From an uncultured Oscillospiraceae bacterium (GTDB lineage Bacteria > Bacillota > Clostridia > Oscillospirales > Oscillospiraceae), in assembly GCA_947623745.1 (NCBI GenBank), contig CANQHN010000001.1:120995-184994 (forward strand): a stretch of 64,000 bases of DNA, read 5' to 3'. The position numbers and the translations under genes are program-made. Positions 6,633 through 21,485 of this stretch are shown piece by piece. The notes under the pieces were generated by a model. That model did no database searches, had not been told where the DNA came from, and saw nothing but the letters and a program-made list of their open reading frames with translations. Each line of letters starts with the position of its first letter. The stretch's first letter is position 1.

Positions 6633-7769
6633 TTACAGCACGTCGGCGAAGGCCTGGATGGCGGTGCTGGCCTGGCCGAAGTCCCGCATCTGCTGGTCCA
6701 CGCCCAGCTTCACGTGGGGGATACCGGCGGCGTCCAGCGCCTTCTTCAGGTAGGGGTACTCCATCTCCTCGGGGTCGCAGAACTGCTGCATGAACAGGAT
6801 CAGACCCTGGGCGCCGGACTCCTTGACCTGCTTCACCACGTAGTCGGCACGGCGGTTCTCGCTGGACTTCTCGTCGAAGAGCAGCACGTCGTAGTCCTGG
6901 TCGGCATACATCTGGGCCAGAGCCATCATGGGGTCGCCGGTCTCGGCGGCGTCCACGCGGATCAGGCGGCTCTCCTGGGCCACGTCGTCGGCGGCGATGG
7001 CGATGCCGTTGTCGTCGAAGATCTGGAGCAGCTTGGGATTGTCACAGATGATGCCGGAGGTGAGGACCTTCTTGCCCTTCCAGTTGGAGGCGGGCAGAGC
7101 GGCCAGCTCGGCGTTGAGCTGCTGCAGCTTGGCGGTGTGCTCGGCCTTCTCCATGAACCAGGCGGAGCGCAGCACGGCGGAGCGCAGCACGGCGGAGACG
7201 GCCTCAGGGTGCTGGCCGGCCAGCTTGACGAACTCCCGGCGGGCGGCGCGGCTGGCGTTCATGGTCTTGATGGCCCCCCGCAGGGCCTCGTCCGTGATCT
7301 CGGCGCCGGCGATCTTCTCCAGCTCCTTCTTCACGTTGGTGTACTGGTCCACAGTGAACTGCATCCCGAAGGCGGGACGGCGGTACTGGGGGTGGGCCAG
7401 GAAGATGCAGGGCAGCTTGTCGCCCATGGCCACGCGGATATTCTGGCTCATGGGGCGCAGGGTGTCGCAGATGGTGGGGGTGATGATGCCGTCCAGCTGA
7501 TCCATGGTGCCGTCCAGCAGCATCTCCAGCGCCAGCTGGGCGATGGTACAGTAGAAGGTGGCGCAGTACTCCTTGGCCAAGGCGATGGTCTTTTTGTTGC
7601 TGCCCCAGATGCCCATGGGCACCATGCCGGCGGCGATGACCAGCTCCTCGGGGGCGTAGTAGGGCAGAACGCCGATGACCTTCTTCCCCTCGGCCTTGTA
7701 CTGGGAGAGGACCTTATAGGGGTGCTCGGAAACCTCCTGGAACTCCTTCAGCAATACGTCGATGCTCAT
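6633..7769 (-). CDS. hgdB: (R)-2-hydroxyglutaryl-CoA dehydratase beta subunit
   Basis: Beta subunit of component D, the [4Fe-4S] enzyme that removes water from 2-hydroxyglutaryl-CoA through a ketyl radical to give glutaconyl-CoA. At 378 residues it is close to the usual length. It shows the family's ICDTLRP and FMQQFCDPEEMEYPYLKKAL segments with conserved cysteines. Its ATG overlaps the hgdA TGA by four bases, indicating translational coupling. AGGAGG lies 10 nt upstream inside hgdA. A 15-bp exact tandem duplication at 7162-7191 adds a second AVLRS in a helical stretch, with the frame kept. Confidence 0.95.
   Translation of the reverse strand: MSIDVLLKEFQEVSEHPYKVLSQYKAEGKKVIGVLPYYAPEELVIAAGMVPMGIWGSNKKTIALAKEYCATFYCTIAQLALEMLLDGTMDQLDGIITPTICDTLRPMSQNIRVAMGDKLPCIFLAHPQYRRPAFGMQFTVDQYTNVKKELEKIAGAEITDEALRGAIKTMNASRAARREFVKLAGQHPEAVSAVLRSAVLRSAWFMEKAEHTAKLQQLNAELAALPASNWKGKKVLTSGIICDNPKLLQIFDDNGIAIAADDVAQESRLIRVDAAETGDPMMALAQMYADQDYDVLLFDEKSSENRRADYVVKQVKESGAQGLILFMQQFCDPEEMEYPYLKKALDAAGIPHVKLGVDQQMRDFGQASTAIQAFADVL
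7162..7191. repeat. 15-bp tandem duplication inside hgdB
   Basis: GCGGAGCGCAGCACG is repeated twice head to tail with no mismatch. It encodes AVLRS-AVLRS on the minus strand. Exact identity at third positions suggests a recent slippage event. Confidence 0.9.
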
Positions 7770-9229
7770 TTCGCAGCGGCCTCCTTTGCGGCTTTGTTGG
7801 CTTCCATGGCCTCGACCAGGCCCTGGACGCGGGTCTCATACTGGGCCTCGTTGAAGTTGCGGGGGTCGGCCTGGTCGCCGTCGAACCCGGCGCAGGGCAC
7901 GCCCAGGTCGGCGGTGAAGCGGCGCTGCATCTCGGCCATATAGCCGGACCAGGGCTTGCAGGAGCGGTTGTAGTGGACCAGCACGCCGTCCACCTTGTTG
8001 GCTCTGCAGATGCCCTCGCGCCAATCCACGCCCTGCTCGATACACACAGAGTTGGGGGCCTTGTAGTAGGCGCGGCACATACCGTCCAGGTCGTCATACA
8101 CGAAGCCGAAGGCGGGGGCGTACACCACGGCAGTGACGTTGACGCCGTTGGCCTTCAGGGGCTTGAACAGGTTGGGCAGCTTGGGCCAGCAGGGGATGCC
8201 CTCGAACATGACGCGGTACTGCTCGGGGAAAGGGGTGGTGGTGGCGCCGGTCTTGACCTGCTCGGCCAGGTCCTTCTCCAGCAGCTCGAAGGCCTCGGCG
8301 GCGGCCACTTTGCCGCGGGCGGTGACCACGTCGGCCATGTGGTTGAACAGGTCGAAGCCGCTGTACGGGGCGGGCTTGTACTGCAGGTAGTCGCACACCC
8401 GCAGCCACGCCTGGGCGGTGCGGTTGGCGTTGGCACAGGCCTGCTCGAACTTCTTCTCGTCGAACTTCTTGCCGGTGATCTCCTCCAGCTGCTTGATGGC
8501 GGCGTCGAACTGGGCGCGGACGTAGGCCACGTTGGTGTCGTGGACCTCCACGGTGTTGTTGTAGGGGATATCGATCATGATCAGGGGGATGTTGCGCATC
8601 CGGGCGATGTTCTCATACCACTTGGTCATGCAGTTGCAGATGTTGTTGCAGCACAGCACGAAGTCGGGCTGGGGCATCCGCATCTGGCGGTAGGGCTTGA
8701 TGGCCTCCCGGCGGAAATTCTTGTAGGCCCGCTCCTTCTCGGTGGTCTCGGGCAGGGCCTCGATCTCGTAGATGTCGTCCAGGACGGTGTAGGGCTGCAT
8801 GGTCTTGGGGTCCTTCTTGGGCTTGCCGGTCTCGGGGTCGATGACCACCTTGCCGTCGGCGTCCTTCAAAGGCTTGCCGCTCTTGGGGTCGATGATGTAC
8901 TCCAACGTCTCCGGGTCGAACTTGCGGGACGCGCGCTTGCCGGCGGCGTAGGCCAGGCTGATGCGGGCGTAGCCGCAGATGTCGTTGTCGTAGCCCAGGT
9001 CCTCGGCGGCCTGGCACATGATCTCGCCGTCGCGGTTGGCGGCGATGCCGGCGGCCTGGTTCTCCGGGTACATGACGTTCAGATCGAACGCTTCGGCCAG
9101 CTCACAGGGGAACTTGGAGCTGGACCAGCCCACCAGCTTGCCCTCGGCCTTGGCCTTCCGGGCGTCGGCATAGACGTCGTCTACTACCTTGCGCAGGGCC
9201 TGCACGCCGGGACTGACTGCTTTCGCCAT
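7766..9229 (-). CDS. hgdA: (R)-2-hydroxyglutaryl-CoA dehydratase alpha subunit
   Basis: Alpha subunit of the dehydratase component D, 487 residues. It has the Cys-rich CCNNICNCM segment near the middle and the charged insertion (about residues 93-150) known in HgdA proteins. Cysteines of this family ligate the [4Fe-4S] cluster that accepts the activating electron. The frame runs open far upstream, into hgdC in another register. I set the start at the ATG giving MAKAV because GGGAGG lies 9 nt before it and because this matches the family length. It lies between hgdC and hgdB, and its stop codon overlaps the hgdB start. Confidence 0.95.
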   Translation of the reverse strand: MAKAVSPGVQALRKVVDDVYADARKAKAEGKLVGWSSSKFPCELAEAFDLNVMYPENQAAGIAANRDGEIMCQAAEDLGYDNDICGYARISLAYAAGKRASRKFDPETLEYIIDPKSGKPLKDADGKVVIDPETGKPKKDPKTMQPYTVLDDIYEIEALPETTEKERAYKNFRREAIKPYRQMRMPQPDFVLCCNNICNCMTKWYENIARMRNIPLIMIDIPYNNTVEVHDTNVAYVRAQFDAAIKQLEEITGKKFDEKKFEQACANANRTAQAWLRVCDYLQYKPAPYSGFDLFNHMADVVTARGKVAAAEAFELLEKDLAEQVKTGATTTPFPEQYRVMFEGIPCWPKLPNLFKPLKANGVNVTAVVYAPAFGFVYDDLDGMCRAYYKAPNSVCIEQGVDWREGICRANKVDGVLVHYNRSCKPWSGYMAEMQRRFTADLGVPCAGFDGDQADPRNFNEAQYETRVQGLVEAMEANKAAKEAAAK

Positions 9230-9267
9230 AATAGTTTTCCTCCCTACTGATTTGGTTTGGCCTTTTT

Positions 9268-10062
9268 TCAGGCCTGGTGTTCTTTCAGATAGCGCTGATA
9301 GCCGAACAGGGCGGCGCCCAGCGCGCCGTTGTACTGGGTCAGGGGCGAGGTGTGGATGGTGTGCCCCAGGGCCTCCTCCAGCGCTTTGACCACGCCGGTG
9401 TTCTGGGCCACGCCGCCGGTCATCACCACCTGGTCCCGGATGCCCACCCGGTGGGCGAGGCCCGCCACGCGGCTGGCGACGGACTTGTGGATGCCGTTGA
9501 TGATGTCCCGCTTGTCGGTGTCCATAGCCAGCTGGCTGATGACCTCGCTCTCGGCGAACACGGTGCAGGTGGAGCTGATGCCCACGTACTTGGTGGACTG
9601 GGCGCCCAGGGTGCCCAGGTCCTCCACCTTCACCTCCAGCACCCGGGCCATCACATCCAGGAACCGGCCGGTGCCGGCGGCGCACTTGTCGTTCATCACG
9701 AAGTTGGTCATGACGCCGTTCTCCACCTGGAGGACCTTCACATCCTGCCCGCCGATGTCGATGACGGTGTGCACCTCCGGGAACAGGAACGCGGCCCCCT
9801 TCCCGTGGCAGCTCAGCTCGCTCATCTGGTGGTCCGCCACCCCCTCCAGGGAGTTGCGGCCGTAGCCGGTGGCCAGGACATAGTCCATGTCCTCCCGCTT
9901 CATCCCCGCGCTCTCCAGCACCTGGGCTATGGCCCGCTGGGGGCCGCTGGTGCCGGCGCCTACGGCGATGAGGGACTTGCTGACGATGTCCCTGCCGTCC
10001 TTGAGCATGACGCACTTGGAGGCGGTGGAGCCGATGTCGATGCCCAGCGTATAGATACTCAT
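9268..10062 (-). CDS. hgdC: 2-hydroxyglutaryl-CoA dehydratase activator (component A)
   Basis: ATP-driven reductive activator, the archerase, that injects one low-potential electron into HgdAB. The 264-residue ASKHA-fold protein begins with the phosphate-binding loop [10 protein letters not shown]. It carries the two cysteines that hold the homodimer's bridging [4Fe-4S] cluster (NDKCAAGTG and [12 protein letters not shown]) and ends with TGGVAQN and a GALGAALFG motif. The length and all motifs match Acidaminococcus HgdC. It lies just upstream of hgdA in the same operon. The enzyme is expected to be extremely oxygen-sensitive, in keeping with a strict anaerobe. Confidence 0.96.
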
Positions 10063-10145
10063 GTCCGGTTATCTCCTAAAATTCAGACTACCGGGCGGCG
10101 GCGTACCGCCACCCGGCTGATATAATTCGCTTCTCCCCTGCCCTG

Positions 10146-11924
10146 TTACTTCTTGTAGGTGTTGAAGTCCTCGATGGTGCGGGGCAGCAGCATCTGATGG
10201 AAGGGGCAGATGGACTTGGGATTCTGGTAGCAGGCGTCGGCGAAGGCCACGATGTAGTTGCGCATCATGGGCATATCCACGATCTCGTCCACCAGGCCGG
10301 CCTGAGCGCAGAACAGGGGCTTGGACTTGACGTCGTAGTCGTCGATCAGGGCGTTCATCTTGTCGATGGTGGGCTGCAGGTCCTTGCCCGCCTTCTGGTC
10401 CTTGGCCAGACGGCCGGTATACATGGCGTTGGCGGCGGTCTTGCCGTTCATGACGTTGATCTCGGTGGCAGCGGTGCCCAGGGAGAAGGCGTTGTTGTCG
10501 TTGCCCTGGGGGCCGCCCAGCACGTAGTGGGCGGCGGCGGTGCCGCGGCGCAGGGTGATCTCCATCATGGGCAGGTCGCTGCTCTGGATGGAGTAGATCA
10601 GGGACTGGCCCAGGCCCAGCAGCTCGGCGACCTCGGCGTCATCGCCCACGTCGATGCCGGTGGTATCCTGGATCCACACCATGGGCAGGCGGTCACGGGC
10701 GCACAGGGTGACGAACTCGTTCATCTTGATCAGGCCCTGGCGGTACAGCTTGCCGGCGGCGCCCATGGACTGGCCGTACTTGGCCACCTTGTACTCGGGG
10801 TAGTTGGGGAACACGCCGTGGCCGTCGGTGCCCTGCTGGTTGGCCACCACGCCCACCAGCAGGCCGTCCACCTTGGCCAAGCCGGTGATCATCTCGGGGC
10901 CGTAGCCCTTCTTGTATTCCATGAACTGGCTGCCGTCGAAGAGCCGGCCGATGACATTGTACATATCGTAGGGGCGGTTCTTGTTGTTCAGCACCAGGTC
11001 GTACAGCTCCACGTCGGACAGGGCGGGAGACTGGGGGGTGTCCACGCGGAAGAACTCCAGGTCATAGCTGGGCAGCATATCCACGTACTTCTTGATGGCG
11101 GCGATGACGCCCTCCTGCTCGGTATAGACCTCGCGGAAGAAGCCGGTCTGGCCGTAGTGGATGGCCACAGATCCCGGGGGATCGGCGCGCAGGCCCTTGG
11201 TGGCCTCGATCTGGGCCAGGGCGGCCTCCATGTCCACATGGGGCTTGGGGTTCATGCCGCCCACGATGCCGGCGCCGCCCACAGCCATGTTGGCCTTCTG
11301 GTGGGCCAGCAGGATGGTGGGAGAGATGGAGTGGTAGCCGCCGCCGGCGGGGTTGGTGCCGTGGATGCCCACGATGACGGGGATGCCCATCTGGTTGAGC
11401 TCGGAGTTGCGGTAGAAGGGGGTGCCGCCGCCCCGGCGGTTGGGGTACACCTTCTCCTGCTTGTCCAGCTCCACGCCGGCGCACTCCAGCAGGTAGATCA
11501 GGGGGATGCGCAGGCGCTTGGCGGTGTCGCTGCCGCGCAGCAGGTTGTCAGCCTGGCCGGGCACCCAGGTACCAGCGTGCTTCTTGTTGTCGGAGGCGAT
11601 GATGCAACACCACTTGCCGTTGACGCGGCCCAGGCCCTTGACGATGGAGGTGGTGCCGGTCTTGTTCTTCTCGGGGTTGTACAGGCTGTTCAGGGGGCAC
11701 CAGGTGCCGGGATCCACCAGCAGGGCCACACGCTGCATGGCGGTGAGCTGGCCCTTGGCGTTCATGTCCTCGTCGGCCCGGCCGTTCTGCAGGCCCTCCA
11801 CGATGTGGGCGTGGATATCCTCCTCAATGGCCTTCAGCTCCGCCACGTTCTCGGCGTTGGCGCGCACGGCCTTGCCGACCACGGGCATATTCTGGAAATA
11901 GCGGGGCATGGAATAGTTACCCAA
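10146..11924 (-). CDS. gcdA: Glutaconyl-CoA decarboxylase alpha subunit (carboxyltransferase)
   Basis: Moves the carboxyl group of glutaconyl-CoA to biotin, giving crotonyl-CoA. The 592-residue protein has the tandem crotonase-like carboxyltransferase halves of the acyl-CoA carboxyltransferase family, close to the 587 residues of the Acidaminococcus enzyme. The start is a TTG: AGGAGG lies 8 nt upstream of it, whereas the next ATG, five codons later, would be 23 nt away. It lies between gctB and hgdC in the fermentation operon, separate from the other pump subunits. Confidence 0.95.
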   Translation of the reverse strand: MGNYSMPRYFQNMPVVGKAVRANAENVAELKAIEEDIHAHIVEGLQNGRADEDMNAKGQLTAMQRVALLVDPGTWCPLNSLYNPEKNKTGTTSIVKGLGRVNGKWCCIIASDNKKHAGTWVPGQADNLLRGSDTAKRLRIPLIYLLECAGVELDKQEKVYPNRRGGGTPFYRNSELNQMGIPVIVGIHGTNPAGGGYHSISPTILLAHQKANMAVGGAGIVGGMNPKPHVDMEAALAQIEATKGLRADPPGSVAIHYGQTGFFREVYTEQEGVIAAIKKYVDMLPSYDLEFFRVDTPQSPALSDVELYDLVLNNKNRPYDMYNVIGRLFDGSQFMEYKKGYGPEMITGLAKVDGLLVGVVANQQGTDGHGVFPNYPEYKVAKYGQSMGAAGKLYRQGLIKMNEFVTLCARDRLPMVWIQDTTGIDVGDDAEVAELLGLGQSLIYSIQSSDLPMMEITLRRGTAAAHYVLGGPQGNDNNAFSLGTAATEINVMNGKTAANAMYTGRLAKDQKAGKDLQPTIDKMNALIDDYDVKSKPLFCAQAGLVDEIVDMPMMRNYIVAFADACYQNPKSICPFHQMLLPRTIEDFNTYKK

Positions 11925-12028
11925 TGTAGATTCCTCCTAGTATGTTTTTCCCGTCTGCGCCGCCCTGGGGGCGGCGCAGACGATCGGTTCCAATCTCCGG
12001 GGCCGGCGGGCGGCCCCACGGGGCCCCA

Positions 12029-12832
12029 TTACTCCTTGGGGACCTTGATGAAGGCCTGGCCGGGGTCGATCTCCTCGCGGATGAGCTTGATGATCTCGGG
12101 GCTGGGGCCCTCCATCAGCTGGGCGCGGGACACGTCCACCTCGAAGCCGGTGTTCTCCTGGACCATCTCGGGGCTGGAGAACGGATAGTAGTAGGCCAGG
12201 TACATGCGCTTGGTGTCGTCGTCGAACTTCATGATGCCCAGGTCGGTGACCACCATCTGGGGGCCGCGGTTGCCGGGCAGGCCGGCGCGCTCACGGCCGC
12301 CGGGGCCGTCCATCCAGCCGCAGGAGGTGATATAGTCGATCTTCTCCATGAAGCGGCGCTTCTGGTGCTGCATCATGATGATGGTGTTGCAGTAGGTGGC
12401 GATGCCGTTGGCGCCGCCGGAGCCGGTGAAGCGGGTCTGGGGCTTGACATAGTCGCCCTTGCCGTAGATGCAGGTGGAGTTGACGTTGCCGTAGGGGTCA
12501 ATCTGGGCGCCGCCGATGAAGGCGATCAGGCGGTCCTCGTCGTGCAGCCACTCGTTGGCCTCGAAGCCGATGAAGCGGACGTTGGGCCACTGCACGGCGC
12601 AGTGGGCCATAAAGCGGTTGTCGCCCACGGAGCGGGGGACCTCAACCGGGGAGCAGTCCATCAGGCCGCTCTCCACGATGGGGTGGCAGGAGGGGCACAC
12701 GGCCCGCTTGGCCAGGGAGGCGCCGATCAGGGGGAGACCGGTGCCCACGATGACGATCTGGTTCTCTTTGATGTTCTTGGCGATGGCGTAAGCCTGCATC
12801 TCCTGCTTGGTGTACTTGGTGTAGTCAGCCAT
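12029..12832 (-). CDS. gctB: Glutaconate CoA-transferase subunit B
   Basis: Catalytic subunit of the enzyme that swaps CoA between acetyl-CoA or glutaconyl-CoA and (R)-2-hydroxyglutarate. It has 267 residues, as in Acidaminococcus. The active-site glutamate is expected at position 54, and here residue 54 is the Glu of PIVESGLMD. A GSGGANG loop lies at mid-protein. It follows gctA with a 21-bp gap. Confidence 0.95.
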   Translation of the reverse strand: MADYTKYTKQEMQAYAIAKNIKENQIVIVGTGLPLIGASLAKRAVCPSCHPIVESGLMDCSPVEVPRSVGDNRFMAHCAVQWPNVRFIGFEANEWLHDEDRLIAFIGGAQIDPYGNVNSTCIYGKGDYVKPQTRFTGSGGANGIATYCNTIIMMQHQKRRFMEKIDYITSCGWMDGPGGRERAGLPGNRGPQMVVTDLGIMKFDDDTKRMYLAYYYPFSSPEMVQENTGFEVDVSRAQLMEGPSPEIIKLIREEIDPGQAFIKVPKE

Positions 12833-12853
12833 TTCAATAAACCTCCCTGCTTT

Positions 12854-13951
12854 TTAGTGTCTGGTGGAATAACCCAGATGGGGCTCGTTCTTCAGCCGCA
12901 TCAGGCGGGAGCCGCCCACCTTATCCAGCAGCTCGTCGTGATCCTTCGCGCTGTAGACCCACTTGTCCAGGTAGTCCTTGAAGGTCTCGGGCACCTTGGA
13001 GCCGTCGGCGGCGGCGTCCGCGGCGGCCTTGGCCTTGGCGGCGGCCTCGGCCAGCTTCTCGTCGCCGGGCTTCTTGTCGGCGGCGGCCTGGGCCTTGACG
13101 GCGGCCTTGGCCAGCTGGGCCACGGCGTCCGCGGCGTCCTGATACTTGGAGGCCTTGTCGTACTCCTTCAGGGCCTCGGAGTCGTTGTCGTAGTAGTTGT
13201 AGCACTGGGAGGGCCAGGCGCCGTAGGGGGCGTGGACCACGGCGGACACACACTGACCGAAGATCCGGGTCAGGGTGGGGTCGCGGCGGATGTACTCATC
13301 ACTGACCAGGTCCTCGCAGGTGACGATGACCTTGCGGGCGGCCACGGCGATATCCACATCGTGGAACTCGTCGCCCTCGATGATGCAGGTGCCGTCGGGA
13401 GAGGCCTTCTGCACGTGGATGATGGCGGTGTCCAGCTTGGGCACGGGGACGGCCACCACCTTCTCGCCGGGGTTGAAGGGGTTGTCGATCTCCACGCACT
13501 TCAGGTCGTCCACCTTGTCCAGGGTCTTGCGCTGCTCCTCGCTGATGCCCCAGTACTTGACCAGACCGGAGCCGCTCATCAGGCGCACGGGCAGGAAGGG
13601 CAGGCCCAGGGAGGCGGCGTGCAGCTGGAGCATCAGCACATCCTGGGAGTAGTCCTCGTAAGTCAGCTGGCCCTTCTCGATGGCGGCGCGGAAGCGGCGG
13701 GAGACGTTGGTGTAGCCGGAGTTGGCGGTGTAGCAGTTGATGTAAGCCTTCACGCGGCCCTCACCGATCAGCATGTCCCAGTCGCCGCCGGCGGGGCCGG
13801 CCCAGACGGTGAAGTTGCCCTGGCCCTGGCGCAGGATCTCGCTCACGGCCGCGTAGGGCTTGCGGTTGGTCGTAAAGCCGCCGAAGGAGATGCAATCTCC
13901 ATCCTCGACGAATTTTGCGACCGCGTCGTGCAAGGTGTAGACTTTGTTCAT
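12854..13951 (-). CDS. gctA: Glutaconate CoA-transferase subunit A with Ala/Lys-rich insertion
   Basis: Partner subunit of GctB and first gene of the glutamate fermentation operon. The N-terminus (FGGFTTNRKPYAAVSEILRQG) and the central half match the CoA-transferase family I alpha fold. The 365 residues exceed the roughly 320 usual for GctA. The excess is an Ala/Lys-rich, probably helical insertion at about residues 265-315, between the KEYDKASK and PETFKDYL segments. The ATG giving MNKVYT is chosen because GGGGGTT lies about 8 nt upstream; an in-frame ATG five codons earlier has no ribosome site. It is divergent from an AraC-type gene. Confidence 0.93.
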   Translation of the reverse strand: MNKVYTLHDAVAKFVEDGDCISFGGFTTNRKPYAAVSEILRQGQGNFTVWAGPAGGDWDMLIGEGRVKAYINCYTANSGYTNVSRRFRAAIEKGQLTYEDYSQDVLMLQLHAASLGLPFLPVRLMSGSGLVKYWGISEEQRKTLDKVDDLKCVEIDNPFNPGEKVVAVPVPKLDTAIIHVQKASPDGTCIIEGDEFHDVDIAVAARKVIVTCEDLVSDEYIRRDPTLTRIFGQCVSAVVHAPYGAWPSQCYNYYDNDSEALKEYDKASKYQDAADAVAQLAKAAVKAQAAADKKPGDEKLAEAAAKAKAAADAAADGSKVPETFKDYLDKWVYSAKDHDELLDKVGGSRLMRLKNEPHLGYSTRH

Positions 13952-14100
13952 GGATAAAACCCCCATTACAAAAGATTTTGGATCGCCTGTTTTCCGTGTG
14001 TCTCGCTCCGGGTATGGGAAAGCGCTGCTCTGCTGGGATATGATCGTTCAAAGTTTAACATAGCCCCGGCGAAATTTCTTTTCCTGATTTGCCGAAAAGT

Positions 14101-16683: not shown

Positions 16684-16943
16684 AAACGTCCCCCGGCGGC
16701 TCGGGGGACGCTTGAGACTGTCAAAAAAGGCCTTCGGCCTTTTTTGACAAAGAGCTGCGGCCCGCGGCAGCGCACTCGCTGTCCGTCAAAGGCGGACAAC
16801 TCGCACGTTTGCGGGCCGAGATGTATTTTTTCCGACGTACACGCCGCCGGAAAAAATAGATTAAATCAGATTCGCGCCTGCGGGCGCGAACTCTGCGAGG
16901 CTTTTTCGACAAGCTGAAACGTCCCCCGGCGGTCCGGGGGACG
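16684..16943. repeat. Intergenic repeat element, copy 1, with terminator-hairpin direct repeats
   Basis: A 206-bp body (16711-16916) is flanked by 27-bp direct repeats (16684-16710 and 16917-16943; 25 of 27 identical). Each direct repeat is itself a complete terminator stem-loop of the form CGTCCCCCGGCGG. The body starts with a TGTCAAAAAAGG hairpin and ends with CTTTTTCGACAAGC, which form imperfect terminal inverted repeats. The left flanking hairpin keeps an A-run on its outer side and the right one a T-run, as if one bidirectional terminator had been split and duplicated. It lies between the convergent MATE and TIR genes. The short frame inside it is not considered a gene. Confidence 0.8.
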
Positions 16944-16987
16944 TTTTTTATCCTTTTCCTCTTTTCGACAGCGGGGCGTCCGCCCGG

Positions 16988-18778
16988 TCAGCCGCTGGAC
17001 AGGGTGCGCAGATAGACCGGCGGCATCCCGGTGTCCAGCTCCAGCTCCTCCAGCTCCAGCGCCCCGGAGGCCCCGGCGCGCAGCACCGAGGCGGTATAGC
17101 TCCCCTCCGGCAGGGCCCCCTTGAGGGCGGTGTACTCCTCGTAGGTGCGGCACACCTGTCCGTTGAGGGCCACGATCACGTCCCCGATCTGGTACACCTC
17201 GTTGGGGGTGTCCGGGGAGGCCCAGCCCACTACCATCACGCCGTAGTTGATCCCCGTCTGACCGGCGCTGTCCAGGAACAGGCGCAGGGCGGGCAAATAG
17301 TCCCCGACGTAGGGGTCTGTCCCCTCCACGGCCGCCTCGATGGCGTCAACACACTGCGCAGCCCCGTCGTAGTACCCCAGATGGACCAGCCCGGCCAGCT
17401 TGGCCCACAGCACCTCCTCCGTGTCCCCCGTCTCGGGGAGCAGCTGCCGGTATGCCTCGGTGAACCGCAGCTGGGCGTCCACATATTGCTCCGCCGCATC
17501 CCGGGACACTCCCAGCGTCATGTAAGCCCGCACCATGTACTCCCGCAGCGCGGCGTTTTCCGCGTTGGTGCTGCCCACCAGGGCGGACAGATCCCGCAGC
17601 GCCTCCTGCTGGCGGTTATCGCTGGCGGTGATGGCCGCCTCCAGCGCCGCGGCGTCGGTGCTCCATGTCGCCGCGCTCAGGGGCACCCGGCCCAGGATGG
17701 GCAGATACTTGTACTGGAACTCCTCCAGGGTGCCGCTGTCCGTAATGGGCAGCAGCAGCTCGTTGGCGCAGGCGGCGTTCTGCTTGAGCTCCTCCTCCAG
17801 CAGCGTCTCGTAGCTGTCCAGGATGCTCATCCGGTCGCTGGCCGTCAGGAAGGTCTCCGGGTCCGCCGTCCACTGGAGGTAGGCCAGGTTCCCGGCCCAG
17901 GACTCCCGGAAGGAGACCAGCGCGTCGTGCATCCCCAGCAGGTCCTCCGAGGCGAAGGGGGCATCGGACAGGGCGCCCACCCGCCCCAGGAATCCGTCAT
18001 CCGGGGCCAGGCCGTCCACATCGCAGTCCTCCAGGGTCTGGAAGGCCAGTTCAAAGGCGTCCTCGAGGGCGGAGTACTCCGCCGCGCCGGTGGACAGGCA
18101 GCGCCGGGCCGCTGAAATGGCGTCGCCCACCCCGTCCCCCATCAGGTCCAGGCCGGTCAGATGGCTCTCCGTGTAGTAGATCACCTCCGAGGTGACGCTC
18201 TTCTCCTGGGCGGTGTGGGGGAACCCCCGCTCCCAGGCCCCCAGGGCAAAGGAGGCCGCCAGGCCCACCGCGCCCACCACCAGCAGGGCCAGCAGCACAG
18301 GCAGCGTCCGCTTGAACAGGGGGTTCTGCGTCACCTGCCGGAGGGCAGGCGGCTTGGCGCGCAGGAATTTTTGCAGCCGGCCGATGAAGGCGTCGAAGAA
18401 CTGGGTGTTGGCCTCCAGGCCGTTCTTGATCCGCACGGGCTCCAGGGACGGGGGCAGCTTCTCCGGGAAGGAGAACCCCCGCAGGAGGATGGGGATGATA
18501 TTCTTGTCCCGCAGCAGCGCCCGCTCCACCTCGCAGCGGACCCAGTCGTTCCCGTTGACGCAGCGGTCCAGGGCGCCGGGGGACAGGATCAGCAGGAAGT
18601 CCTTGCACCCGTCGATGACGGAGTACAGCTCGGTATTGAAGTCCCCGGAGCGCAGGGACTCCACGTCGAAGAACACCCGGTAGCCCAGCTCCTCCAGCCG
18701 GTCCCGGAGGATCTTTGCCGTGTACTCCCCGCCGTCCCGGCGGTAGGAGATAAAAATATCATAGGTCTTATTCTCCAT
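16988..18778 (-). CDS. TIR-domain membrane protein with extracytoplasmic C-terminal PDZ-like domain
   Basis: Protein of 596 residues. Residues 1-140 are a TIR domain: it opens with YDIFISYRRDGG and has FFDVESLRSGDF, a LLILSPGAL strand, and W79-V-R-C-E83, where Glu83 is in the place of the catalytic glutamate of NAD-cleaving TIRs. One membrane helix follows (about 158-181) with basic residues before it, so the TIR is cytosolic. The rest is exported: a helical, TPR-like region (about 190-500) and a PDZ-like domain (about 500-585, with IGDVIVALNGQ). This layout suggests a receptor that senses something outside and switches a cytosolic NADase. It shares a divergent promoter region with the next gene. 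No such pairing is known to me. Confidence 0.75.
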   Translation of the reverse strand: MENKTYDIFISYRRDGGEYTAKILRDRLEELGYRVFFDVESLRSGDFNTELYSVIDGCKDFLLILSPGALDRCVNGNDWVRCEVERALLRDKNIIPILLRGFSFPEKLPPSLEPVRIKNGLEANTQFFDAFIGRLQKFLRAKPPALRQVTQNPLFKRTLPVLLALLVVGAVGLAASFALGAWERGFPHTAQEKSVTSEVIYYTESHLTGLDLMGDGVGDAISAARRCLSTGAAEYSALEDAFELAFQTLEDCDVDGLAPDDGFLGRVGALSDAPFASEDLLGMHDALVSFRESWAGNLAYLQWTADPETFLTASDRMSILDSYETLLEEELKQNAACANELLLPITDSGTLEEFQYKYLPILGRVPLSAATWSTDAAALEAAITASDNRQQEALRDLSALVGSTNAENAALREYMVRAYMTLGVSRDAAEQYVDAQLRFTEAYRQLLPETGDTEEVLWAKLAGLVHLGYYDGAAQCVDAIEAAVEGTDPYVGDYLPALRLFLDSAGQTGINYGVMVVGWASPDTPNEVYQIGDVIVALNGQVCRTYEEYTALKGALPEGSYTASVLRAGASGALELEELELDTGMPPVYLRTLSSG

Positions 18779-18849
18779 CGTATCGCCCCCTCCGCGGACC
18801 GGGCCATTCCATTTTTTCCGTGGTCCGCGCCTTTCGCCTGTTCGACAAG

Positions 18850-18878
18850 ATCATACCATATCCGGCCGCCTGAAACAA
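18850..18878 (-). promoter_or_regulatory. Promoter of the TIR gene
   Basis: TTGTTT, 17-bp spacer, TATGAT, 72 bp before the ATG. It is back to back with the promoter at 18900-18928, only 21 bp away, so one regulator could control both. Confidence 0.6.
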
Positions 18879-18899
18879 GGCCGAACCGGCGCTCCGGCC

Positions 18900-18928
18900 T
18901 TGCATTCCGGCGGTTTTTCGATTATAAT
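18900..18928 (+). promoter_or_regulatory. Promoter of the 190-aa gene
   Basis: TTGCAT, 17-bp spacer, consensus TATAAT, 55 bp before the start codon. Confidence 0.75.
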
Positions 18929-18983
18929 GTTGAAAAACACCTCGTCCGGCCCACCGCCGGATGTGTGAAAGGAGGCCGCTCCC

Positions 18984-19556
18984 ATGCCGCTGCTTCACCG
19001 TATCGCCCAGCTCCTCTCCCCCGCCGCCGGGCCGGGATCCTCCCCCGAGCCCCCGGAGCTCCGCCGCCCCTGGACCGGAGACATGGTCCTGCGCACCGCG
19101 GGGACGGGGAAAACGGTCCGCTACCCCCGCAGCTCCTACGGGGCGGTGAAGGTGGAGTGGGTCAGCCGCCGGCTGGACGACCAGGGACGGCCTGTCCAGG
19201 TCCGGGTTCCCAGCGAGATCACCCGGATCTACGCCCTGGAGAGCGGCTTCACCGCCGCCGGGAAACACTACGACCGCTGTGAGCAGCTCTACGCCCAGGC
19301 CGACCGCCGAAAGATCTGGTGCCGGGACATCTACGGCCGGGAGGTGCTGTACCTGGCCGAGCGGTTTCCCTGCTTCGACAGCTCCGATTTTCTCACAGAG
19401 AACCGCTTCTTCCGCTGGTTCTTCCTCCGGGAGGGCCAGAGGCTCACCCGCGTCTTTTACACGGACGAGACGGACAAGATCTATGTCACCGAGGACGTAG
19501 CCAACCTGGAGCACCGGTGCTGGCAGGACATGGAGCGGGAGGGCTACTTCCAATGA
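18984..19556 (+). CDS. Hypothetical protein between the TIR and TrkA/RyR genes
   Basis: Unrecognised soluble protein of 190 residues with no signal peptide or membrane segment. It is rich in Arg, aromatic and acidic residues and looks like one mixed alpha/beta domain from about residue 30. Repeated aromatic-charged patches (RFFRWFFLREGQRL, DETDKIYVTEDV) could form a binding surface. AAAGGAGG lies 8 nt before the ATG. It is divergent from the TIR gene and convergent with the TrkA/RyR gene, sharing a terminator with the latter. Position suggests a role in the same system; no function is assigned. Confidence 0.75.
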   Translation: MPLLHRIAQLLSPAAGPGSSPEPPELRRPWTGDMVLRTAGTGKTVRYPRSSYGAVKVEWVSRRLDDQGRPVQVRVPSEITRIYALESGFTAAGKHYDRCEQLYAQADRRKIWCRDIYGREVLYLAERFPCFDSSDFLTENRFFRWFFLREGQRLTRVFYTDETDKIYVTEDVANLEHRCWQDMEREGYFQ

Positions 19557-19575
19557 TCCCGGCGCAAAAAGCCGA

Positions 19576-19609
19576 GGCGGCGGGCCCAGGAGGGCCCGCC
19601 GCCTTTTTT
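19576..19609. terminator. Bidirectional terminator
   Basis: A 12-bp perfect stem (GGCGGCGGGCCC with complement) with a 4-nt loop has TTTTTT on one side and a shorter A-run on the other. It serves the plus-strand 190-aa gene and overlaps the stop codon of the converging TrkA/RyR gene. Confidence 0.85.
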
Positions 19610-21485
19610 ACTGTGTCAGATAGGTCAGCAGGTCGTACACCGCCACGTCGGGGTGCTCCCTGCACATGATCTCCCAGGTGGTCAGGTACGGGGTCTGCCG
19701 CAGGGCCTCGTTCTTGCGGGCCGCCAGATGCCAGCCGTCGGCCGCCATCACACAGCACCAGCGGCGGTGCTCGGTCATGGCCAGCTCCCGGATCTCCGGC
19801 ACGGCGTTGATGGCGTCGGACATGGCCCTGCCGTCCCGGCCGCAGTGGTAGCCGTCCGCGCCCCGGCGCAGGATGATCCCCTCGGGGCCGAAGCAGCGCT
19901 CCCGCATCTCGGGGGAGAGGGGGTTGATCGCCCGCTTCACCACCTGGTGGCGGCAGAGCAGGAAGTTGGCCCGGCGCTGGTACATTTTCAGCTCCCGCCA
20001 GCCGTCCTCTCCGCTCTCCGACCCATGTCCGCCCTCCGGGACGGGCTGCACCTCCTGGTAGGCCCGGTTGAACTCCCGGGCCTGCCTGGCCCGGTCCTCG
20101 TCGCTGATATAATCGACGCTCAGCAGGCGGCTGCTGACCGGGATGGGGAACACCTCCCGGAAGGTCCCCCGGTCCTGCTCCAGGTACTCCGCCGCCTCCA
20201 GGTCCTGCTCCATGCGCAGCGCCACGGGGAATCCCCCGCCCAGCTTCTGCAGCTCTACGGCACAGTGCATCCCCGCGTCTGCCTGCCCCGGACAGACGGC
20301 GGCGTAGGTCAGGGGCATCTCCCCATGCAGCCGCTCGATCAGCCGGGCAAATCCCCGGCCCATCACATCGGCCCGGTGGAATCGGATGCGCAGCTCGCCG
20401 TCCGCGGTGGGCGGCGCCAGCCTGATCTCGTCCCCGTCCGGCTCCGCGTCCACCGAGGGGTGGAACCGGTTGGTGAACCGCTCCCACCCGCGCTCCATGT
20501 CCTGGTCCACCACGTCGATGCACACCCGGTTGGAACTGCTCAACACCCCCAGGTTCACCGCCTGGAGCAGCACCTGCTGCCCCACCGCGCCGAACCCGGC
20601 GATGAGCAGGTGCACATCCAGGCGGTCGGGCCGACTCTCCTCCCGCTCCAGATTGACGGTGTGCAGGGGCACGCTGGCAAACACGCTGTCGGCCTCCATC
20701 TCGGCCAGGCTGAACAGGGACAGCTCCGCCCTGCCGCTCCCCCGGCTCTGGTCGCAGGCGTCCTCGATGATCCGGCGGGCCGCCTCGTCCTCACAGAGGC
20801 AGTAGCACCGCGCCCCCTCCCCCAGCGGGGACCCCGGCGCGGTCAGCGCCCGGTAGAGGCTGAAATTGCGGGTGGCGGAGGGCTCCATCAGCAGCACCAG
20901 CTTGACCCGGTCCAGCCGGATCCGCCGGAACAGCGCCGTGCGGCGGCCCTCCGGCATGGTCAGCAGGTCCGCCTGGTGGCAGACGGCCCCGTGCCGGGCC
21001 AGCCACAGCAGAATCTTGTCGTCCAGCGGCTCCGCGCAGGCCAGGTGGATGCGGTAGCGCCTGGGGTCCTTCCGCTCCTGGCCCTCCAACATGGCGCGCA
21101 CGTCGGCGTTGTAGCCGCACACCAGCACCGGCGTCCCGCCCCAGTTCCGAAGGCCCGCAAAGGCGCGGCACACCGCCCGCTCCGCCAGGAGGAACAGGGC
21201 CGTGGCCGTACACAGCGGCGCGGTGAACACCGCGACGCCGTAGGCATATCCCGCCGCCAGCTCCGGCTCGGCGGCACCATCCAGGGCGGCGGCCACCTCC
21301 TTGATCTCCAGGTCCGGCGAGAACAGGAAGGCCTTCAGCGCGTTCTGCACCGTCATCAGCACCCGCAGCAGCGGGTGCGCCGCATACTGCCCGTAGTAGA
21401 AGTACCCCTCCGCCAGTGCGGCGGCGAAGGAAAACCCCGCCAGCACCCAGAGCATGGGGGTGTACCGTTTCCATTTCGCGTCCAT
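19608..21485 (-). CDS. TrkA-like two-Rossmann membrane protein with C-terminal RyR domain
   Basis: Protein of 625 residues with two membrane helices near the N-terminus (about 10-30 and 82-103). Two cytosolic Rossmann-like domains follow. The first begins at about residue 118 (PVLVCGYNADVRAM). The second begins at about residue 290 with an intact glycine motif GFGAVGQ, as in TrkA-N/RCK domains. The last 55 residues (EHRRW..., then DGWHLAARKNEALRQTPYL) match the ryanodine-receptor (RyR) repeat domain, which also occurs in bacteria. TrkA-type domains bind NAD or related nucleotides and gate ion transport. With a TIR protein two genes away, a nucleotide-sensing membrane effector is a reasonable guess. 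No pore-forming subunit is visible nearby. Confidence 0.7.
   Translation of the reverse strand: MDAKWKRYTPMLWVLAGFSFAAALAEGYFYYGQYAAHPLLRVLMTVQNALKAFLFSPDLEIKEVAAALDGAAEPELAAGYAYGVAVFTAPLCTATALFLLAERAVCRAFAGLRNWGGTPVLVCGYNADVRAMLEGQERKDPRRYRIHLACAEPLDDKILLWLARHGAVCHQADLLTMPEGRRTALFRRIRLDRVKLVLLMEPSATRNFSLYRALTAPGSPLGEGARCYCLCEDEAARRIIEDACDQSRGSGRAELSLFSLAEMEADSVFASVPLHTVNLEREESRPDRLDVHLLIAGFGAVGQQVLLQAVNLGVLSSSNRVCIDVVDQDMERGWERFTNRFHPSVDAEPDGDEIRLAPPTADGELRIRFHRADVMGRGFARLIERLHGEMPLTYAAVCPGQADAGMHCAVELQKLGGGFPVALRMEQDLEAAEYLEQDRGTFREVFPIPVSSRLLSVDYISDEDRARQAREFNRAYQEVQPVPEGGHGSESGEDGWRELKMYQRRANFLLCRHQVVKRAINPLSPEMRERCFGPEGIILRRGADGYHCGRDGRAMSDAINAVPEIRELAMTEHRRWCCVMAADGWHLAARKNEALRQTPYLTTWEIMCREHPDVAVYDLLTYLTQ

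Follow-up and report, generated by a model that had tools for sequence, protein, structure and literature searches.

A TIR receptor gene near a gene for a predicted RCK-type channel with a ryanodine receptor domain in an Oscillospiraceae genome: a candidate bacterial signaling pair

A 64,000-nucleotide stretch of the genome of an uncultured Oscillospiraceae bacterium (GenBank assembly GCA_947623745.1, contig CANQHN010000001.1, positions 120,995 to 184,994), referred to here at its full length as the window, carries a gene for a TIR-domain membrane protein and one for a predicted ion channel with a ryanodine receptor (RyR) domain at its end, hereafter the RyR-channel. Both genes lie on the minus strand, 829 bp apart. 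The preferred reading is that they encode a signaling pair, in which the TIR receptor would make a cyclic ADP-ribose (cADPR)-type signal from nicotinamide adenine dinucleotide (NAD) that binds the RyR domain and gates the channel; a probability of roughly 0.6 was assigned to it. The region is organized as follows.

16988..18778, minus strand: gene of the TIR receptor (596 aa), with a TIR domain, a single membrane helix, a helical outer part and a PDZ-like end
18984..19556, plus strand: 190-aa gene with no family found, probably a bystander
19574..19605, scoring on both strands: hairpin terminator between the RyR-channel gene and the 190-aa gene
19608..21485, minus strand: gene of the RyR-channel (625 aa), with pore-like helices followed by RCK1, RCK2 and RyR

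The TIR receptor was divided into these parts.

18350..18778, minus strand: SARM1-like TIR domain, residues 1-143
18530..18532, minus strand: codon of Glu83, a glutamate predicted to be catalytic and conserved in 80 of 80 aligned sequences
18233..18322, minus strand: membrane helix, residues 153-182 (hydropathy and structure model)
17003..18211, minus strand: outer part predicted to be helical (190-508), then a PDZ-like domain (513-592) (structure model)

The initial annotation, made from the letters alone, had described a TIR, transmembrane and PDZ protein with a putative catalytic Glu83, and this description held. The protein matched TIR_2 in Pfam with 53.4 bits, and the modeled TIR domain has the fold of the TIR domain of SARM1, an enzyme of nerve-cell death in humans, with the predicted catalytic Glu present, whereas the end of the protein matched PDZ_6 only weakly, below the cut-off. 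A match to the ThsB family in PADLOC 2023 was also weak (25.6 bits). We infer that the TIR domain faces the cytosol, and the outer part is a predicted sensor.

The second protein was described by the same annotation as a two-Rossmann membrane protein ending in an RyR domain, and structure prediction agreed with it.

21147..21482, minus strand: pore-like part with TM1 (2-32), pore-type helix (38-53) and TM2 (73-113), no TVGYG filter (model, alignments, column counts)
20622..21134, minus strand: first RCK-like Rossmann domain, about 118-288 (model, Foldseek, VIA)
20046..20615, minus strand: second RCK-like Rossmann domain, about 291-480, with GxGxxG loop (297-302) and Asp324/Asp327 (model, VIA, column counts)
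19611..19832, minus strand: RyR domain, about 552-625 (E 5.5e-13 for a family profile against RyR domains of solved structure)
19758..19772, minus strand: EHRRW codons (572-576), in which His573 and Trp576 correspond to His75 and Trp78 of the phage protein RyDEP (invariant in 66 of 66)

The model of the RyR-channel (mean predicted local distance difference test score 89.5, about 76-85 in the pore part; predicted template modeling score 0.84) places a long helix, a short pore-type helix and a long second helix before the two Rossmann domains and the RyR end, and thus contains the two-helix pore and RCK domains of RCK-gated channels. Its best Foldseek and VIA matches were the TrkA, CASTOR and DMI1 gating rings, GsuK, BK and MthK; the VIA alignments to GsuK and MthK begin at residues 4 and 7, within the first helix. 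A TVGYG-type potassium filter was not found in column counts of the family, which has FxFxP or FxFxA at that place, and the protein was therefore not classed as a potassium channel. In the second RCK domain, Gly297 is present in 66 of 66 sequences, and Gly299, Gly302, Asp324 and Asp327 in 64 of 66 each. Such conservation would also fit a channel that senses the loss of NAD, where the TIR protein consumes NAD, the second RCK domain with its GxGxxG loop responds to the NAD or ADP level and the RyR domain only tunes the response. According to PMC3510474, ADP and NAD+ activate GsuK, which gave the top VIA match. This account was considered quite improbable: the link that recurs in the genome surveys described below is that of TIR with RyR, including RyR proteins of about 100 aa and a TIR-RyR reading frame with no RCK match.

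The RyR assignment was made with a profile built from 66 sequences (alignment A3) and searched against solved structures. Besides the match at E 5.5e-13, the profile matched 4n05 and 3nrt (both "Putative ryanodine receptor") at 5e-6 to 8e-6, so that the C-terminus groups with RyR domains and the outcome that would have spoken against the initial annotation, a C-terminus with no RyR fold, was not seen. The window sequence by itself scored 12 bits against Pfam RyR (PF02026), below the cut-off of 27.4 bits. Phage RyR proteins bind or cleave the TIR products 2'/3'cADPR according to the preprint PMC13232231, which also reports that His75, Trp78, His100 and Asp117 of RyDEP hold or cleave cADPR isomers, that His75 and Asp117 form the catalytic dyad and that the RyDEP ligand residues are conserved in animal RyRs. 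The counterparts of His75, Trp78 and Asp117, namely His573, Trp576 and Asp618, are present in 66 of 66 family members; this mapping relies on solved RyR domains and the residue numbers in PMC13232231 instead of an alignment of RyDEP itself, and Asp618 was paired by its position after a Tyr, past the end of the hidden Markov model alignment. As separate observations, relatives of one small RyR protein from bacteria are encoded in 243 of the 50,697 phage records, and those of two records from human fecal samples are 63-64% identical to it.

Because both residues of the RyDEP dyad have counterparts (His573 and Asp618) throughout the family, with roles taken from the same preprint, the RyR domain could instead be an off-switch that hydrolyzes the TIR product as phage RyDEP does, the membrane protein ending the signal or sensing and destroying it at once. 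We regard this as unlikely. PMC13232231 reports that eight other phage homologues did not cleave the signal when tested, whereas six of the eight bound it. An off-switch would also need no pore or two RCK domains and would be unexpected on the tail of a potassium-type channel, an arrangement found in another genome (L067, see below).

Evidence that RyR-channels and TIR proteins are linked came from two surveys. In the first, a scan of GTDB genomes returned 53 loci encoding relatives of the RyR-channel, mostly from Ruminococcus, Lachnospiraceae and Oscillospiraceae by record title. TIR_2 matches were mapped in 50 genomes (all except L055-L057), with an in-frame open reading frame (ORF) on the locus required, and all 53 loci were then checked with a local TIR profile. 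Matches that fell within the locus range by number only, with no in-frame ORF, were not counted, nor were the TIR-profile matches of L025 and L028, which lie inside RyR ORFs, or a weak match in L027. L025 had been included by mistake among the sequences on which that profile was trained. A TIR frame was the immediate same-strand neighbor, within about 260 bp, in 34 of the 53 loci; L014, in which a TIR frame is followed by a second frame and then the RyR gene, would be a 35th. Abutting pairs from R. flavefaciens include those of L015, L036, L038 and L043. The chance expectation was 0.09 loci (111 TIR_2 matches in 50 genomes, with 0.9 genes per kb assumed), and in 20 of the 34 the TIR_2 match was the only one in the whole genome. 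The loci include near-duplicates (the RyR proteins of L007 and L008 are identical, and 23 partners form one R. flavefaciens-type group); independent support is therefore given by the number of deep clades and partner types and not by the raw count.

A larger companion was observed in six loci (L006-L009, L040 and L041), where a protein of 650-722 aa accompanies the TIR/RyR pair (e.g., L009:11991-13946, plus strand). By eye it has an HD-domain-like look and an RyR-like C-terminus; no Pfam cut-off was reached in the two proteins checked. In L040 and L041 the RyR-channel gene is flanked by TIR genes on both sides, and the downstream one in L040 carries DUF4268.

The second survey started from any RyR domain. 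The Pfam RyR model (PF02026) matched 31 of 394 genomes of the order, 26 of them over the cut-off; the window's own RyR protein is too divergent for this model. TIR_2 was run on the same 31 genomes, 20 of which were read as regions and 11 judged by coordinates only. A TIR domain abutted the RyR gene or shared its open frame in 10 of 31 genomes (G237, G134, G399, G433, G449, G132, G460, G056, G166 and G115), against 0.09 expected by chance; in G166 the adjacency runs through a second RyR gene, and G237 was counted in both surveys. In G237, which belongs to the same family as the window genome, only 3 bp lie between the end of an RyR-channel gene of the window's family (566 bits) and the GTG start of the TIR gene that follows, and the gene order is that of the window. 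In G115, a single 674-aa open frame holds both TIR_2 (46 bits) and RyR (65.8 bits). G433 (L067) encodes a 519-aa protein with Ion_trans_2 (45.7 bits), a TTVGYGD filter and a C-terminal RyR domain (30.5 bits), with a TIR gene next to it; the same filter and arrangement were found in G399 (L066). Together, the two surveys support the suggestion of the initial annotation that a TIR product is sensed by an RyR/TrkA protein, as does the binding or cleavage of TIR-made cADPR isomers by phage RyR proteins reported in PMC13232231. That annotation had also pointed to conservation of three genes as a block; the TIR and RyR-channel pair recurred, and the 190-aa gene is not supported as a third partner.

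Further arrangements were seen in these genomes. The 674-aa ORF (L074:4799-6820, minus strand) is a natural fusion of TIR and RyR with N-terminal hydrophobic stretches. Three-gene sets in L067:3131-9279 (plus strand) and L066:2822-8889 (plus strand) comprise an RyR/RCK-like protein, the TTVGYGD channel with C-terminal RyR and a TIR protein. Standalone RyR proteins of about 100 aa are encoded beside or near TIR genes in L071, L072, L073 and L083.

The TIR partners, those of the window and of L063 included, fell into seven groups by full-length similarity.

TIR with a beta-propeller-type part, about 1140 aa: 23 loci (PQQ_2 in L010)
414-689 aa: L006, L040, L041
536-577 aa: L009, L016, L022
Short protein: L007, L008
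About 600 aa: L031, L039, L063
C-terminal TIR: L051, L054
TIR-TM-PDZ: the window

When the 414-689-aa and 536-577-aa groups were lumped into one, giving six types, the partner type changed at least 5 times on a quick tree, the minimum possible with six types; the window RyR sequence forms a long branch there and its place is unsure. The kind of partner thus varies between clades, yet the neighbor remains a TIR protein. By eye, the partners have a Glu at or near the catalytic place (L051 and L054 lay outside this comparison). A different account takes the TIR protein as a scaffold and the RyR domain as a binder of ordinary adenine nucleotides, the unit being a regulator of potassium homeostasis. 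RCK proteins are known to regulate potassium transport. The RyR domain of human RyR3 binds adenine ligands together with dantrolene, according to PMC13232231. This was judged very improbable, given the invariance of Glu83 and the SARM1 fold of the TIR domain; a scaffold would also hardly explain differing TIR architectures at the same spot.

Several observations weigh against the signaling pair. No immediate same-strand TIR neighbor was found in 19 of the 53 loci (18 with L014 counted; several are short contigs): a convergent TIR gene lies 215 bp away in L035, a TIR gene 489 bp away in L056 and 1.4 kb away in L037, and one on the same strand at 5.2 kb in L005, and in the remaining 14, several of them on short contigs, no TIR gene was seen. 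Ten neighbor proteins from ten of the 18 unpaired loci included no TIR protein and belonged to housekeeping, other or no Pfam families. In the second survey, 21 of 31 genomes had no abutting TIR gene, two of these having TIR at about 0.7 kb (G351) and 2.3 kb (G211) and the other 19 none. Neither the TIR nor the RyR-channel gene was found in 36 other genomes of the window genus; among 59 relatives in all, none had the RyR-channel and the TIR query matched one more (G056), through the TIR part only. A full-length match to the window TIR protein (TM-helical-PDZ) was found in 1 of 394 order genomes and 1 of 391 class genomes, two overlapping sets, and was the window's own both times; its pairing with an RyR-channel is therefore a single observation, and in no other genome examined does this TIR type lie beside an RyR-channel. 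At E <= 0.001, the TIR protein had at least 427 database matches and the RyR-channel protein at least 25, each counting itself, so that many TIR-PDZ proteins probably live without an RyR-channel. The opposite-strand gene and the terminator make co-transcription in the window unlikely, and the two genes are unlikely to form one operon. In addition, the pore lacks a potassium filter, which leaves ion conduction a prediction, and RyDEP His100, which binds phosphate, corresponds to Thr598 in the window protein (Asn in 40, Thr in 17 and His in 9 of 66), for which reason full RyDEP-like ligand binding is not claimed. RCK-type folds are also found in regulators of transporters.

The window pair might therefore be chance or historical neighbors that work apart even though other members of the family are true pairs, and the intervening opposite-strand gene and terminator, together with a TIR protein that groups with no other partner, speak for this. 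We do not consider this a likely account. In the whole genome there are two TIR_2 matches and a single match to the RyR-channel family. A distance of 829 bp separates the channel gene from one of the TIR genes, and the order and strand of the two are those of the abutting pair in G237. TIR and RyR genes likely belong together, the neighborhood statistics being strong for the family and indirect for the window.

Under the preferred reading of a signaling pair, the window TIR protein likely makes an NAD-derived channel-gating signal, because relatives of the channel adjoin TIR genes in dozens of bacterial genomes. The domains, the conserved residues and the recurrent adjacency of TIR and RyR-channel genes are observations; enzyme activity, ligand, ion and purpose are predictions. 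A trigger outside the membrane would switch on the TIR enzyme through the outer sensor, that is, the helical part and the PDZ-like end. The TIR domain would turn NAD into a cADPR-type signal, as homology to SARM1 and Glu83 suggest, and this signal would bind the RyR domain of the neighboring channel, as the RyDEP work and the conserved residues suggest. In the model the RyR domain caps a gating ring of two RCK domains per subunit that would act on the two-helix pore, with four subunits expected per channel by comparison with GsuK, CASTOR and BK. The fold indicates that the RyR ligand may open or close the channel, and the ion flow could depolarize the cell or bring it to arrest, in answer to stress or phage. 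The modeled outer sensor suggests an envelope signal as the trigger; stress signaling is therefore as possible as defense.

In a broader form of the proposal, which we hold at slightly less than even odds, bacteria run their own NAD, cADPR and RyR pathway, in which TIR enzymes, in the window a membrane receptor of the SARM1 class, would make a cADPR signal that opens RCK channels via RyR; this would be an ancient modular signaling or immune system and a possible source of both the animal cADPR-RyR axis and the RyR decoys of phages. Whether cADPR acts directly on animal ryanodine receptors is an old open question. If the reading is true, the TIR-paired, RyR-tailed channel would be a bacterial receptor for cADPR isomers, RyR-gated ion channels would join the outputs of TIR signaling, and the carriage of RyR decoys by phages could be explained. 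Such links may be mentioned in earlier comparative genomics from Burroughs, Aravind and coworkers (NAR 2015; J Bacteriol 2020). Cellular TIR-RyR pairs or an RyR receptor on a bacterial ion channel were not found in the open-licence PubMed Central literature, including within PMC9503650, PMC7016017, PMC7159879 and PMC8195603, and the part of PMC13232231 available names no bacterial receptor that answers cADPR isomers via an RyR domain.

The surroundings of the pair are ordinary. One flank encodes a MATE transporter and an AraC regulator, and the other an S-adenosylmethionine-dependent methyltransferase with a PUA-like domain and an alpha/beta hydrolase; no defense family was found by Pfam among nine flanking proteins. 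A plasmid or phage home for the RyR-channel was not indicated, as neither the 72,556 plasmid records nor the 50,697 records of phages contained a match. The 190-aa gene was rejected as a third partner, being on the opposite strand, with no family match in Pfam, PADLOC 2023 or NCBIfam and with 54 database matches including itself; a single operon in the window is not supported either. Synteny of a homologue of the 190-aa protein (P0161) with a TIR homologue (P0029), hinted at by their records both being of size 4866, was not used because such agreement can be accidental: P0012 and P0056 also share a size (3118), one that has no room for the two genes. Similar strong hairpins at 16684-16713 and 16916-16947 flank a short stretch downstream of the TIR gene, and a related stretch seems, by eye from ORF translations, to recur near 26.9 kb of the window. 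Farther away, a cluster at 7766-13966 resembles glutamate fermentation (2-hydroxyglutaryl-CoA dehydratase, carboxyltransferase-like protein, CoA-transferase subunits); CoA_trans was matched for 12029-12832 and the rest was assigned by eye.

Among known systems, Thoeris (a ThsB TIR protein with a ThsA effector) is similar in that a TIR protein lies near a second protein with a domain suited to sensing a TIR-made nucleotide, and a ThsB-like TIR protein with the predicted catalytic Glu is present in the window. In contrast to Thoeris, the window has an RyR domain as the sensor in place of SLOG or macro, a predicted ion channel serves as the output, and the genes do not form one operon, although those of relatives are adjacent and co-directional in 34 of 53 loci. 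The 625-aa protein gave no match to ThsA in PADLOC 2023 or to SLOG or macro in Pfam, newer Thoeris types being covered to the extent that PADLOC 2023 and NCBIfam include them, and filing the unit as Thoeris was rejected for want of a ThsA-type effector. The route from TIR to nucleotide to effector is thus already known from Thoeris, whereas the predicted RyR receptor and ion-channel output are new, since no bacterial RyR ion-channel receptor was found in the literature searched. Phage RyDEP (PF02026) has the same His, Trp and Asp positions, and its ligand is a TIR product according to PMC13232231; it differs in that RyDEP cleaves or soaks up the signal, whereas in the window the RyR domain, with Thr in place of His100, forms the tail of a membrane protein of the cell. 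The dual-RCK channels GsuK, CASTOR/DMI1 and BK (Slo1) resemble the modeled RyR-channel, each chain combining two membrane helices and a pore-type helix with a pair of RCK domains, and the window subfamily differs from them by its C-terminal RyR domain and the lack of a TVGYG filter. In animals, cADPR is thought to act on ryanodine receptors, and the window likewise encodes a SARM1-type TIR domain close to a channel-like protein with an RyR domain. This domain is all that the bacterial protein has in common with the animal receptors; the pore and gating ring of the bacterial protein are, by the model, of the RCK class.

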